64,000 nt of DNA from Gemmatimonadota bacterium (GTDB taxonomy: Bacteria; Gemmatimonadota; Gemmatimonadetes; Gemmatimonadales; GWC2-71-9). The translations under genes and the position numbers were made by a program. Location: assembly GCA_003169895.1 (NCBI GenBank), contig PNAE01000007.1, forward strand, positions 1,593,978 through 1,657,977, read 5' to 3'. The notes below the pieces were generated by a model that did no database searches, had not been told where the DNA came from, and was given only the letters and a program-made list of their open reading frames with translations. Of the stretch, positions 23,445 through 64,000 are shown in pieces (the stretch's first letter is position 1; every line of letters starts with the position of its first letter).

Positions 23445-23689
23445 CCCCGGACGTCCGCATCGTCGTCGACGGTGTGCCGCACCATGTTCCCCCAGACATC
23501 ACGCTGGCAGCGGCACTCCTGAATCTCGGCGTGACGGCGTTCCGGCGAGACGTCCGCCAGGAGGCGCGCGCACCGTTGTGCGGCATGGGCACCTGCTTCG
23601 AATGCCGCGTCACCGTCGACGGCGTGCACAACACGCGCGCGTGTCTCGAGCCGGTGCGCGAGGGCATGTCGGTGGAGTGCGGCCGATGA
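23441..23689 (+). CDS. [2Fe-2S] ferredoxin-like subunit of D-hydroxyproline dehydrogenase
   Basis: Protein of 82 residues with Cys at 47, 52, 55 and 68 in the spacing of plant-type [2Fe-2S] clusters (CGMGTCFEC then C). It is too short to carry more than the cluster fold. Its ATG overlaps the upstream stop and its TGA overlaps the downstream ATG (ATGA both times), so all three subunits should be made in equal amounts. In known three-part amine dehydrogenases this subunit passes electrons between flavins. Confidence 0.88.
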   Translation: MTPDVRIVVDGVPHHVPPDITLAAALLNLGVTAFRRDVRQEARAPLCGMGTCFECRVTVDGVHNTRACLEPVREGMSVECGR

Positions 23690-24981
23690 TCGGTACGCGC
23701 GGCGCGCCGGTCGATGTACTCGTGGTGGGGGCAGGGCCCGCCGGGCTGAGCAGCGCGGTTGCGGCCGCGGACCGCGGCAAGCAAGTGCTAGTGCTCGACC
23801 TGGGGCTTCGGGCTGGCGGCCAGATCTGGCGGCATCGCGACGAAGCCGCATTGCCCCGCGTGGCGCGCCAGTGGCTGCAACGCGTCAGGGCCGCTGGGGT
23901 GACCATTGCATCGAGCGCGCGGGTGCTGGACGCACTTTCTCCGGACGAGCTGGTCGTCGATTTTGGTGGTCGCATCGATCGCCAGCGTACTCGCGCGCTG
24001 ATCCTCGCGACCGGTGCCAAGGAACGCTTACTGCCGTTTCCGGGATGGACCTTGCCCGGTGTGGTCGGAATCGGCGGCCTGCAGGCCCTGATCAAGAGTG
24101 GGCTCACGCTCAATGGATCACGCGTTGTCATCGCCGGTACGGGTCCACTGCTGTTTCCAGTCGCCGCCGCGGCGGTTGCTGCGGGTGCGGACCTCGTGCG
24201 GGTTGCCGAGCAGGTGCCGTTGCGAACTGCCGCCGCGTTTGCGATGGGATTGCTCGCGAAACCATCCGCGATTCGTCAGGCCATCGGTTACCGTTGGGCG
24301 TTTCGCAACACGGCGTACCGCACCGACAGCTGGGTAACCGCCGCTGAGGGTGATGGTCGTGTGCGCCGAGTGCTCCTGCGCGACCGCGGTCGAAGCACGG
24401 CGATCGATTGCGACTGGCTCGCCGCGAGCTGCGGCCTGTGCCCCAACACCGAACTGGCAGAACTACTGGGTTGCGCCATCGACGGCGATGCGATTCGGGT
24501 GGATACATCGCAAGCGACGACGGTCGCCGGCGTCTGGGCTGCGGGCGAATGCACCGGCGTCAAGGGTGACATTGCGGCGCTGGCCGAAGGAGAGATCGCT
24601 GGCCGCGCAGCGGCAGGCGACGCACCGGGATCGCGCCGGTCCTCGCTGCAACGCCGCCGCGAATCCGGCCGGGAATTCGCACGCCGCCTGGCCATCGACT
24701 TCGCGCCGCGGACGGAGTTGCTGCACCTCGCCGGCGCTGACACGATCATCTGTCGCTGCGAGGACGTGCGCCGTGGCGACATTGACCCCCGCTGGACCCA
24801 GCGGCAGGCCAAGCTCTGGACGCGCATCGGCATGGGTGAGTGTCAGGGCGCGGTGTGCGGACCAGCGTGTGCGGCGCTGTTCGGCTGGCAAGCGAACGTT
24901 CCGCGGCCGCCGCTTGGAGCGCCGTTATGCGGGGATTGGGCGGGAGCGTTGGTCGACGAAGACGTAAGCGGTGAGAGGTAA
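23686..24981 (+). CDS. NAD(P)/FAD oxidoreductase with C-terminal [2Fe-2S] domain (D-hydroxyproline dehydrogenase alpha subunit)
   Basis: Protein of 431 residues with an N-terminal FAD motif VVGAGPAGLSSAVAAADRG, a second nucleotide motif near residue 145 (VVIAGTGPLLFPVA) and a BFD-like C-terminal cluster domain with CRCED and CQGAVCGPAC. This is the HcnB-like alpha subunit of heteromeric D-amino-acid dehydrogenases. It overlaps the small subunit by 4 nt and ends the operon. Its last codons and TAA (24964-24981) are made of the heptamer repeat that starts the hairpin element. Confidence 0.9.
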   Translation: MIGTRGAPVDVLVVGAGPAGLSSAVAAADRGKQVLVLDLGLRAGGQIWRHRDEAALPRVARQWLQRVRAAGVTIASSARVLDALSPDELVVDFGGRIDRQRTRALILATGAKERLLPFPGWTLPGVVGIGGLQALIKSGLTLNGSRVVIAGTGPLLFPVAAAAVAAGADLVRVAEQVPLRTAAAFAMGLLAKPSAIRQAIGYRWAFRNTAYRTDSWVTAAEGDGRVRRVLLRDRGRSTAIDCDWLAASCGLCPNTELAELLGCAIDGDAIRVDTSQATTVAGVWAAGECTGVKGDIAALAEGEIAGRAAAGDAPGSRRSSLQRRRESGREFARRLAIDFAPRTELLHLAGADTIICRCEDVRRGDIDPRWTQRQAKLWTRIGMGECQGAVCGPACAALFGWQANVPRPPLGAPLCGDWAGALVDEDVSGER

Positions 24982-25067
24982 GAGGTGAAACGGGGGCTCC
25001 ACTTCGTGCAGAGCCCCCGTTTCACCTCCTACCTCTCACCTCGCACCTCGCACCTTTCACCTCTGAC
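24964..25067. repeat. Heptamer-armed stem-loop, cluster R1
   Basis: Four 7-nt units in register at 24964-24991 (GTGAGAG-like) and seven inverted units at 25019-25067 (CTCTCAC-like) flank a GC-rich stem. The core 24982-24999 pairs perfectly with 25011-25028 (18 bp, loop 25000-25010), and after one mismatch 24970-24980 pairs with 25030-25040. The element lies between two convergent genes and supplies the last codons and stops of both (TAA 24979-24981, TGA at 25057-25059 on the minus strand). It is likely a bidirectional terminator. Confidence 0.9.
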
Positions 25068-25491
25068 CCCTTCCCGCCGTCAGCGCCAGTATTGCCGCCG
25101 CCGCCAGTCGTTGAAGCCTCGCGGCATCGGTGTCTCCCAGCGCGCCGATCACGAGCTCATCCAACGAGGTCCACGCCCGCCGCACCGTGCTCTCCAGCAG
25201 TCGTGAGCGCGGCGTAGGATAGACGAGCACGACCCGTCCGTCATGCGGATCGACGCGACGTTCGATCATCCCACCGCGTTCCAGGCGTTGCACCATTCGC
25301 GTGACCGTGGGCGGCTCGACACCCAGTTGCTCCGCAAGCGCGGCCTGTCGCAAACCGGGCGCATCCCAGACCGCCAGCAACAGCAAGTCCTGCCCGGCGT
25401 GCAGGCCGTGCGGGGCGAGCAGTGCGCCGAGACGCGCGCGGTGGGCGCGCGCCAGCGCATGCAACGTTGGGCCAAGCGTATCTGGAGTCAT
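25057..25491 (-). CDS. MarR-family transcriptional regulator
   Basis: Protein of 144 residues with the MarR winged helix: GLRQAALAEQLGVEPPTVTRM as helix-turn-helix near residues 46-66, then LERGGMIERRVDPHDGRVVLVYPT as wing. It follows copD on the same strand with a 39-nt gap. It may control the neighbouring Fur/CopD genes or respond to a phenolic ligand; the ligand is not predictable. Its final GQR and stop codon are encoded by the heptamer array. Confidence 0.9.
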   Translation of the reverse strand: MTPDTLGPTLHALARAHRARLGALLAPHGLHAGQDLLLLAVWDAPGLRQAALAEQLGVEPPTVTRMVQRLERGGMIERRVDPHDGRVVLVYPTPRSRLLESTVRRAWTSLDELVIGALGDTDAARLQRLAAAAILALTAGRGQR

Positions 25492-31247: not shown

Positions 31248-31301
31248 GCAGCCCAGAGGCCTGAGCCCAGTGCAAAGCCAAGAGCCAAGAGCCCAAAGCC
31301 C
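31248..31301. repeat. Heptamer repeat cluster R5 (AGAGCC type)
   Basis: Three 7-nt units at 31248-31268 (GCAGCCC, AGAGGCC, TGAGCCC) and four in exact register at 31274-31301 (AAAGCCA and AGAGCCA type). There is no inverted arm of comparable length. It fills the space between tRNA-Thr and the convergent esterase gene and may be part of the 3' end of the tRNA transcript. Confidence 0.75.
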
Positions 31302-46325: not shown

Positions 46326-46895
46326 ATGAGACTACTCGTCGCGTTGATTGTGGCCACGCTGTTGACGGCCGTGGCGCCGGTATCGGCGCAAGTTGTGCCG
46401 GACGCGCCGCTGGCGCACGGGACGCTGGCATTCGACGGCAAGGGGACACTCGGCGGCTTCACGGGCGTGACCACGACGCTGACCGGGCAGTTGATCGGTG
46501 CCAACACGCTGAGCGGCGCGCGCGGATGGGTCGAGGTGCCCGCGAAGTCGCTGAGCACCAACAACGGTCACCGCGATAACGACATGGCGGGCTCACTTGA
46601 GCTAGCGAAGTACCCGGACATCCGATTCGACCTGGACAGTGTCGCGCCGGGCGAGCAACACGGCGACTCGACGACAGTGACGCTCTCGGGTTGGTTCACC
46701 ATTCACGGGCAGAAGCGCGCCGCACGAGTACCGGGCTGGGCGTGGCTGACGGCAACGAGCGTGCGCTTTCGCGGTGCACTCCCAATGAACGTCAAGGACT
46801 ATGGCGTCGGGGGTCTGAGCAAGATGTTCGGCGTGCTCAAGATGAACGAGATGATCACCGTACGCATCGATGTCGCGTTCGGAGGTGAGCGGTGA
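46326..46895 (+). CDS. YceI-like periplasmic protein
   Basis: Protein of 189 residues with a signal peptide (about 1-21, VALIVATLLTAVAPVSAQ) and a YceI-type lipocalin-like barrel: GGFTGVTTTLTGQL, HRDNDMAGSLELAKYPDIRF and MNVKDYGVGGLSKMFGVLKM. YceI proteins bind polyisoprenoid-type lipids. Its last codons GGER and the stop lie in the first units of heptamer cluster R2, which is followed by a T-run on the plus strand. Confidence 0.88.
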   Translation: MRLLVALIVATLLTAVAPVSAQVVPDAPLAHGTLAFDGKGTLGGFTGVTTTLTGQLIGANTLSGARGWVEVPAKSLSTNNGHRDNDMAGSLELAKYPDIRFDLDSVAPGEQHGDSTTVTLSGWFTIHGQKRAARVPGWAWLTATSVRFRGALPMNVKDYGVGGLSKMFGVLKMNEMITVRIDVAFGGER

Positions 46896-46992
46896 AAGGT
46901 GAGAGGTGAAACGTGAAACGTGAAACGTGAAAGGGGTGTCGCCCTGAGCGCGACAGCGCTACTCCCTCTCACGTCTCACCGCTGACTTTTTT
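46885..46992. repeat. Heptamer-armed stem-loop, cluster R2, with T-run
   Basis: Seven 7-nt units in register at 46885-46933, including three identical GTGAAAC, and three inverted units at 46966-46986. The arms 46885-46905 and 46966-46986 match at 18 of 21 positions. Between them TGTCGC and GCGACA form an inner stem. Six T follow (46987-46992), fitting an intrinsic terminator for the YceI gene. The YceI stop (46893-46895) lies inside, and the M14 peptidase gene ends within it on the other strand. Confidence 0.9.
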
Positions 46993-49737: not shown

Positions 49738-49841
49738 GAGAAACGAGAGACGAGAGAAGAGAGAAGTGACGTGCCCCTGACCGCGTTCGGGGCGACCAGG
49801 CAGTTCACGTCTCGCGTCCCTCGTCTCTCGTCTCTCGTGTT
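49738..49841. repeat. Heptamer-armed stem-loop, cluster R3 (GAGACGA type)
   Basis: Five 7-nt units in register at 49738-49772 (GAGAAAC, GAGAGAC and relatives) and five inverted units at 49807-49841 (TCGTCTC type) flank a CCCC...GGGG inner stem. It lies between two leftward genes, downstream of the flavoprotein gene and upstream of the M14 gene. The inverted array encodes the last 11 residues of the flavoprotein. Confidence 0.88.
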
Positions 49842-51097
49842 AGTGTAGCGGCGGCGCCGAGTCCAGCGAGCCTTCCCGTGCTCCACGCCCAGACGAAATT
49901 GTAGCCCCCGATCGGTCCGAAGGCATCCAGCAACTCGCCGGCGAGGAAGAGTCGCCGATGCAGGCGACTTTCGAGCGTCCGTGGGTCGACCTCGTCGAGG
50001 GCGACGCCCCCACCCGTGACCTCGGCCTTGCGGTACCCTTCGTCGCCGGTCCACGGGAGCGGAAAGCGCACCAGCAACTCGATGAGCCGGAGCCGCGCGG
50101 CGCGGGTGAGCTGTGCGAGCGCGGTGGCGCCGTCGACGCTGGCCATGGTAAGAAGGCGATCGGCGAGGCGGCCGGGAAGCGGCGGGCGCAGTGCCGAGAC
50201 GACGGTTTGTGCCGACGGGGCCAGCCGCTCCGTCCAGGCGGTTGCGTCGAGCGACGTCCATTGGACGCGCAGACGGGCCGGCTCGCCGCCCGCGAGGCGG
50301 CTGCGCACCGCGATGTCCGAAACATCGAGTACCGCGGGTCCGCTGTAGCCGTGATGGGTGAACAGGAATCCACCGCTCGTGGTGCGGTGCGCACCCGGCA
50401 TCGTCGCGGTCAGCACGACATCGAGGGAGACGCCGGCGAGGTCGGCGTACGCGGGCGGATCGAGCGTGATCGGCGTGAGAGCGGGGTAGGTGTCATGCAC
50501 CGTGTGGCCGAGCTCGGCGAGACGGCGCAGTCCGAAGCCGTCCGATCCTGTCGCCGGGACCGACAGCCCACCGGTCGTGATGATCACCGCGTCCGCCGTG
50601 AACTCCCGGCCATCCACCGCGGTCAGTTGCCAGCGCCGCGCAGTGGACTCGAGGCCGACGATCTCAGTCGCCCCGATCCACTCGACGCCCCGTTGGCGCG
50701 CCAGCGCGACGAGCGCATCCCGCACCACGCGCGCGCGATTGGCGACCGGGAACAGCTTCCCGGTTTCCGGCTCGAGCACCAGTGGCAATCCAACCGTCTG
50801 CTCGAAGAACTGACGCTGCTCGCGCAGTGGCCAGCTGCGGAGGATCTTGCGCATGATGTTGGGCGACGATGCGGTGACGAACCGGGCCTCGTCGAGCGTC
50901 CCGGGCAGGACGTTGCACCGCCCGCCGCCGGAGATGAGGATCTTGCGCCCGCCGTCGGTGGTTCGTTCCAGCAACACGACCCGGCGCGCGGGGCCGGCTG
51001 CGTGTATGGCAGCCATCAGGCCGGCGGCCCCGGCGCCGAGCACGGCGATGGTGGGGATCGAGGTTTCGGGGCTGGAACGCGGAATAAGCTCTTGCAT
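49805..51097 (-). CDS. HI0933-family flavoprotein (NAD(P)/FAD oxidoreductase)
   Basis: BaiN/HI0933-type flavoprotein of 430 residues. The FAD motif is AVLGAGAAGLMAAIHAAG, followed by GRKILISGGGRCNV, the family signature, then GGLSVPATGSDGFG, FTHHGYSGPAVLDVSD and the C-terminal GELLDAFGPIGGYNFVWAW. These proteins are RsmD-like in neither fold nor role; some reduce bile-acid enones, most are uncharacterised. The last 11 residues (TRETRDEGRET) are repeat-derived, past the normal family end. Confidence 0.9.
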   Translation of the reverse strand: MQELIPRSSPETSIPTIAVLGAGAAGLMAAIHAAGPARRVVLLERTTDGGRKILISGGGRCNVLPGTLDEARFVTASSPNIMRKILRSWPLREQRQFFEQTVGLPLVLEPETGKLFPVANRARVVRDALVALARQRGVEWIGATEIVGLESTARRWQLTAVDGREFTADAVIITTGGLSVPATGSDGFGLRRLAELGHTVHDTYPALTPITLDPPAYADLAGVSLDVVLTATMPGAHRTTSGGFLFTHHGYSGPAVLDVSDIAVRSRLAGGEPARLRVQWTSLDATAWTERLAPSAQTVVSALRPPLPGRLADRLLTMASVDGATALAQLTRAARLRLIELLVRFPLPWTGDEGYRKAEVTGGGVALDEVDPRTLESRLHRRLFLAGELLDAFGPIGGYNFVWAWSTGRLAGLGAAATLTRETRDEGRET

Positions 51098-55894: not shown

Positions 55895-55972
55895 AAGTAA
55901 GAAGTCAGAGGTCAGAAGGAGACCGCCGCCTGCCATCTCGGGGGTCTCCTTCCGACTTCCGACTTCTCTCTT
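55895..55972. repeat. Heptamer-armed stem-loop, cluster R4 (AAGTCAG type)
   Basis: Three 7-nt units in register at 55895-55915 (AAGTAAG, AAGTCAG and AGGTCAG) and three inverted at 55952-55972 (CCGACTT type). The inner stem is GAAGGAGACC with GGTCTCCTTC around a loop from a GC-rich segment. It lies between two leftward genes, directly after the DUF4097 stop and just ahead of the SCP2 start. Confidence 0.85.
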
Positions 55973-63701: not shown

Positions 63702-64000
63702 GTGAGAGCCCAGAGCCCAGAGCCAGAAGTCACCCTCGAGTCCCGCGCGGGGCGGGGCCGCCTGCTGCTGAACGCGGCGTTCCTTGCGCTGGTCCTCACG
63801 ACACCGATGTCGGCACAACGCCTTGACTGGCGCACCAGTGCCGTGCTCTACGCCGATAACACCGAGTTCTTCACGCCCTATCGCGTGGGTGAGACAATTC
63901 TGGGCGGGCAAGTGACCTCCTGGCTCGCCGCGCGCATCGGGCCGCGCACCGAACTGCGCGTTGGGCTCTTTGCCGACCGGCGTTGGGGCTCGGACAATTT
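63702..64000 (+). CDS. Exported protein, partial (window end)
   Basis: Incomplete gene cut at the right edge, 99 codons seen. After a GTG start its first residues come from the heptamer cluster, then a basic stretch, a signal-like helix (LLLNAAFLALVLTTPMSAQ) and mature LDWRTSAVLYADNTEFF and LAARIGPRTELRVGLF. The alternating pattern suggests an outer-membrane beta-barrel. The repeat-derived start and missing ribosome-binding site make the true start uncertain. Confidence 0.6.
   Translation, partial: MRAQSPEPEVTLESRAGRGRLLLNAAFLALVLTTPMSAQRLDWRTSAVLYADNTEFFTPYRVGETILGGQVTSWLAARIGPRTELRVGLFADRRWGSDN
63704..63724. repeat. Heptamer repeat cluster R6 (CAGAGCC type)
   Basis: Three 7-nt units in exact register (GAGAGCC, CAGAGCC, CAGAGCC), followed by the related AGAAGTC. 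It lies between the aguB start and the gene starting at 63702 and forms the first codons of that gene if the GTG start is right. Confidence 0.7.

Follow-up and report, generated by a model that had tools for sequence, protein, structure and literature searches.

R1, the repeat between two convergent genes in the 64 000-nt stretch of DNA analysed here (the window), belongs to a dispersed class of palindromic 3′-end elements, with about a hundred members in its host genome (G000; Gemmatimonadota, 3.42 Mb), whose genes have relatives in Gemmatimonadota metagenome assemblies. The members share an architecture: two arms of tandem heptamers flank a central core, the purine-rich strand heads into that core, the arms lie at stop codons and match each other, and the heptamer itself turns over within and between genomes. 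We give roughly even chances to the reading that the element is a two-way, U-tract-poor 3′-end hairpin (a terminator and/or an mRNA stabiliser) whose arms grow by heptamer slippage and are retained for pairing.

Structure of R1

The first-pass annotation had described four forward and seven inverted heptamers around an 18-bp stem that is extended, after one mismatch, by 11 bp; re-reading of the units and pairs found this correct to the base (Table 1). On the minus strand, from outer to inner, the right-arm units are GTCAGAG, GTGAAAG, GTGCGAG, GTGCGAG, GTGAGAG, GTAGGAG and GTGAAAC. The 18 perfect pairs, the mismatch and the 11 further pairs make a near-perfect 30-bp hairpin. The mismatch is A·C in the plus transcript and a G·U wobble in the minus transcript, so that the MarR transcript folds as the more continuous stem. 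The two strands fold at −64.4 and −74.9 kcal/mol, with z-scores of −9.3 and −9.8 and 0/200 shuffles equal. The innermost heptamers are A/T-enriched, as expected for a bidirectional terminator, and there is no U-tract of at least 5 after the hairpin, the sequence beyond the core stem being GUUUCACC. Within the window, known RNA families matched only tRNAs.

Table 1. Coordinates of R1, its flanking genes and sibling elements in the window
Feature	Position	Strand	Remarks
Upstream gene, putative FAD/NAD(P)-dependent oxidoreductase-like (flavoprotein gene)	23686..24981	+	Named from the earlier annotation and sequence motifs
Left arm of R1	24964..24991	+	Four heptamers (GTAAGCG GTGAGAG GTAAGAG GTGAAAC); rich in purines on the flavoprotein sense strand
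TAA stop of the flavoprotein gene	24979..24981	+	Within the third heptamer, GTAAGAG
Core stem-loop of R1	24992..25018	.	GGGGGCTCCACTTCGTGCAGAGCCCCC; in phase with both arms
Right arm of R1	25019..25067	-	Seven heptamers, inverted; rich in purines on the MarR sense strand
TGA stop of the MarR-type gene	25057..25059	-	Within a GTGAAAG heptamer
Convergent gene, putative MarR-type regulator	25057..25491	-	Name from the earlier annotation; start at 25464 or 25491
Sibling element, convergent genes	46885..46979	.	Dialect GTGARAS; weak right arm of 2 units
Sibling element, tandem minus-strand genes	49738..49836	.	Dialect GAGAGAC; right arm translated as the C-terminus of the upstream gene
Sibling element, tandem minus-strand genes	55895..55966	.	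Different unit, AAGTCRG

Both stop codons were confirmed to lie inside the arrays and, as also claimed, R1 supplies the final codons and stops of both genes. The comparison of C-termini that the annotation had proposed was informative: the tails supplied by R1 are not conserved, orthologues terminate elsewhere, and in a relative (G166) the array in the corresponding gap is itself translated, as ETRDERRETR. For these reasons we conclude, on sequence comparison, that the R1 arrays make no functional C-terminus. It is plausible, as suggested, that R1 could end both transcripts. A quadruplex role for the R1 dialect was rejected since G3 runs are absent.

The GTGAGAG/GTGAAAG dialect (24971–24991 and the right arm) also reads GAGGTGA, a perfect Shine-Dalgarno sequence that other dialects lack. 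Its complement, TCACCTC, corresponds to the anti-Shine-Dalgarno end of 16S rRNA. The match is probably due to chance.

Abundance and orientation in the host genome

G000 was sampled as 40 stretches of 20 kb plus the window (864 kb), with further stretches taken for synteny; the counts rest on 864–924 kb in total, and four of the sampled stretches were picked for containing hits. In 320 kb selected irrespective of hits there were 16 period-7 arrays, and Markov shuffles gave 0; other periods, multiples of 7 excepted, yielded 0–5 arrays each in the same DNA. Using a weight matrix for the main unit family, G-W-R-A-R-R-S (GAGAGAC, GTGAGAC, GTGAGAG, GTAAGAG and others), we recovered 99 arms in the 864 kb and 4 in shuffles. 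Among neighbouring arms ≤200 nt apart in this sample, 35 cases were plus-then-minus, 2 were same-strand and 0 were minus-then-plus; the purine-rich strand thus heads into the core in 35/35 opposite-strand pairs. Outside the hit-picked stretches and the window there were 23 paired elements in 720 kb, which extrapolates to roughly 110 in the whole genome.

Heptamers of a second family, built on AGCC-type units (AGCCAAG, AGAGCCC, AGCCACT), occur in the window at 31273–31301 and 63703–63726, and in other stretches at L040 8566–8626, L043 3533–3566, L046 8029–8115 and L052 7536–7675. Some arrays of this family lie between divergent genes, and both of the pairs with reversed orientation belong to it, so that it may be a different class.

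Position relative to genes

To place the elements we used gene calls from our own ORF-scoring gene finder (746 genes and 90% coding). Of the 35 paired elements, convergent genes flank 16, tandem genes 17 and divergent genes 2, corresponding to 15%, 3.4% and 2% of the respective neighbour pairs (convergent versus tandem, p = 2.7e-5; convergent versus divergent, p = 9e-4). The majority of convergent gaps in G000 have no element. Where an arm faces a gene 3′ end it is closely anchored, with 48/49 such arms within −56 to +14 nt of the stop codon. In some tandem pairs only 5–45 nt separate the right arm from the next start; this is scant space for a promoter and makes complete termination at those sites unlikely.

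Stop-bearing units (GTGA, GTAA) often themselves provide the stop codon. The GAGAGAC unit contains no stop and is read through in places, the array then becoming a C-terminal tail; the idea that a 7-nt unit serves to place stop codons in all frames was rejected on these grounds. Overlaps of at least 18 nt between gene end and array occur in 13/49 cases. At L122 (window 49805–49841) and at L101 in G166, stop-less arrays add charged C-terminal tails.

Arms, cores and 3′-end structure

The two arms of an element carry a common unit (Spearman rho = 0.79 for position 2 and 0.68 for position 7), and arm identity is 75% within elements versus 67% when right arms are swapped between elements. The right arm of a tandem element matches its left arm even though it runs antisense to both neighbouring genes, which argues that pairing, and not the neighbouring gene, sets its sequence; a model in which each arm grows at the end of its own gene, coupled to transcription, was rejected for tandem elements on the same observation. 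The order of individual units is mirrored only weakly between the two arms (permutation p = 0.08). We therefore rejected exact hairpin-templated copying from arm to arm, the register not being clearly above permuted arms.

The cores are mostly unrelated among elements; many are GC-rich terminator-like stems and a few contain a REP-like palindrome. This palindrome, GTCATCCYGAGC...GCTCRGGATGAC, was noted at L054 6655–6800, at L048 10319–10456 and at loci L078, L080, L081 and L083 of the congener G043. It makes up the core in some elements and is also dispersed without main-family arrays, only 6 of its 49 half-sites in 864 kb being near such arms.

The unit next to the core is richer in A (41% versus 16% A at position 5, p = 7e-5), which would place extra U directly after the core in each transcript. 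Structure is strongest at gene 3′ ends that carry an element (z = −1.6, versus −0.4 for array-free ends and 0.0 upstream of starts). Terminators with a hairpin followed by a U run were seen at just 3 of ~700 gene 3′ ends in the 864 kb, which suggests that the G000 lineage ends its transcripts mostly by means other than U-tract terminators.

Turnover between genomes

Of 101 genomes of the phylum scanned for the array pattern, a minority had strong counts, each with its own unit; the dominant units were, for example, GAGAAGG in G043, GAAAAGG in G014 and GAGAAAG in G025. Within the genus, array-pattern matches were present in 9/10 genomes, including G000. The exception was G029, in which 155 kb (L057, L093–L096, L154–L156) contained 0 period-7 arrays of any sequence. 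The elements are thus dispensable, and G029 offers a natural control for tracing the responsible gene or lost process.

A unit-blind scan of 8 genomes gave 56 paired arrays, purine/G-rich first in all but two, both exceptions having AGCC-type units. Several units coexist within one genome: GAGAGAC and AAGTCRG in G000, and GAGAAGG, AGATGAC and TAGAGAC in G043. Orthologous gene ends gain and lose elements of differing unit sequence. Between the flavoprotein and MarR genes, G000 carries GTGAGAG units and G166 carries GAGAGAC; six congeners have no element there, the two genes abutting, overlapping or being separated by an array-free gap. At the 46885 site the units are GTGAAAC in G000, GCGAGAA in G168 and GAGAGAC in G164, and in the 55895-site gap the orthologues in G162, G164 and G168 have plain hairpins (read by eye). 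At L125 in G162, downstream of the orthologue of window 49805–51097, a single gap contains a chain of the dialects TCGTTGG, GGATGTT, CACCAAT and CCGTTCT.

What the elements might do

A constant geometry (seven bases, complementary arms, purine-first order, location at the stop) combined with a variable sequence points to RNA pairing rather than to a sequence-specific protein or a quadruplex. Each element consists of a purine-rich heptamer array that starts at the stop codon, followed by a short hairpin core and then by the reverse complement of the array. As we envisage it, the arms pair in phase over the core in RNA of either strand and give a very long hairpin, purine-rich on its 5′ side and pyrimidine-rich on its 3′ side. 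Most probably this hairpin would set where both convergent messages end, acting as a U-tract-poor two-way terminator and/or as a stem that blocks 3′ exonucleases. The purine-first order puts a strong hybrid before the core and a weak rPy:dPu hybrid after it, in both directions. We infer that this weak hybrid is tied to termination at these elements: the nascent purine arm might zip up with the pyrimidine arm that follows, whichever 7-nt register they adopt, and pull it off the hybrid. Arm length would change in both directions by 7-nt slippage, with pairing holding the two arms alike. The orientation rule, the stop-codon anchoring, the preference for convergent gaps, the matched arms, the U enrichment after the core, the scarcity of U-tract terminators, the strong structure of element-bearing ends and the plain hairpins at the 55895 orthologues favour this reading; the missing U-tract, the many element-free convergent gaps, the absence from G029, the tandem elements close to the next start and the weak mirror register count against it.

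The main rival is neutral growth. Here the arrays would be selfish heptamer satellites without function, enlarged by slippage and palindrome correction wherever they do least harm, i.e. after stops and off promoters. An excess of heptameric repeats is known in bacteria and has been attributed to polymerase slippage (PMC4692102), and such satellites would account for the rapid turnover of both presence and unit at orthologous gene ends and for the absence of arrays from G029; the mostly unrelated cores and the 13 of 49 arms that enter reading frames by at least 18 nt also fit. However, neutral growth does not explain the strict orientation. Purine-first and pyrimidine-first pairs should be equally frequent, whereas 54/56 are purine-first, and neither the A/T enrichment of the innermost unit nor the tight anchoring to stop codons is predicted. 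We regard it as possible rather than probable. A Rho-dependent two-way terminator, in which the C-rich, G-poor arm past the core acts as a rut site, appears unlikely to us: although G000 encodes a rho gene (C8:80124–81362), has almost no canonical intrinsic terminators, and in 54/56 pairs the sequence past the core is richer in C than in G on both strands, rut sites require unstructured RNA, and the C-rich arm would be sequestered by its complementary upstream arm (predicted fully paired); in addition, many arms are just 21–35 nt long.

Oriented tandem copies, with one dominant unit family per genome, could also be read as an array of sites for a sequence-specific protein that binds DNA or RNA, or as a recombination or uptake signal of the Chi or DUS type, but the coexistence of unrelated units with an identical architecture in a single genome (G000, G043) makes this very unlikely. 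Spread as a REP/REPIN-type mobile palindrome by a REP-associated transposase is the least credible. The elements are extragenic palindromes at gene 3′ ends, and a few cores do contain the dispersed REP-like palindrome; nevertheless, the Y1 transposase (PF01797) is absent from the array-rich G000 and the cores are mostly unrelated, so that the elements are not copies of one unit. A mobile REP/RAYT origin was accordingly rejected. Separately, G000 has a second Rho-like gene (C8:442822–443916), which scores 422 bits, under the family cut-off.

For the two-way 3′-end hairpin, we infer termination or stabilisation, slippage and selection for pairing from the architecture described above. If so, the elements are a candidate means of transcript ending for a genome with seemingly very few U-tract terminators, and the independence of the architecture from the unit makes the role testable with a two-way reporter. 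A more far-reaching version, which we offer as speculation and consider doubtful, is that these are a geometry-defined class of 3′ ends, in which purine-first heptamer pairs re-invent their unit in each lineage and act as register-free zipper terminators, produced by a dedicated 7-nt-stepping process common to distant phyla.

Comparison with known repeats and terminators

To our knowledge, bacterial heptameric repeats have been noticed since 2007 without gaining an accepted role, the quadruplex idea having come from one G-rich unit. Here the same architecture recurs across many units, including ones that are unable to form three-tier quadruplexes, so that what is conserved is pairing, period and orientation. 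The STRR repeats of cyanobacteria are species-specific heptanucleotides in intergenic DNA. In a limited literature search we found no reports of heptamer elements in Gemmatimonadota.

With a canonical intrinsic terminator R1 shares a GC-rich hairpin after the stop, without the directly following U run. Transcript ends at U-lacking hairpins have been reported in high-GC Streptomyces (PMC8269248), and the elements resemble these I-shaped ends, and bidirectional terminators, in having a strong GC hairpin after the stop, no U-tract and two convergent transcripts. They differ in that their arms are tandem heptamers and in that their role as transcript ends is predicted from sequence. Like REP, BIME and REPIN sequences, they are palindromes scattered outside genes, at 3′ ends in gaps of both the convergent and the tandem kind; unlike them, they have no common sequence, and G000 has no REP transposase.

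The TAACTGA repeats of Beggiatoaceae (MacGregor 2015, PMC4679880) are also intergenic heptamers with many copies per genome, but these are direct repeats of one fixed unit, mainly just upstream of starts, whereas the present elements are inverted. Of the known kinds, the convergent intergenic heptamer repeats of Xanthomonas (Rehm et al. 2015, PMC4692102) come closest. Those GGGAATC heptamers lie near or overlapping the upstream stop codon, with 70–75 convergent inverted pairs per genome and few between divergent genes, and no role was found for them. Together with the GGGGA(C/T)T repeats of Nostoc, they share with our elements the seven-base unit, the dispersed and mostly intergenic location, the position at or overlapping the stop of the 5′ gene, the frequent convergent inverted pairs, the rarity between divergent genes and lengths that vary between sister species. 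They are G-rich and quadruplex-forming, whereas GTGAGAG, GTAAGAG and GAGAGAC have no GGG run, although the units of some congeners (GAGAAGG, GAAAAGG) do create GGG at junctions. What sets the present elements apart from the Xanthomonas and Nostoc repeats is that their units vary both within and between genomes, that a hairpin core lies between the arms, and that the purine-first order is near-absolute.
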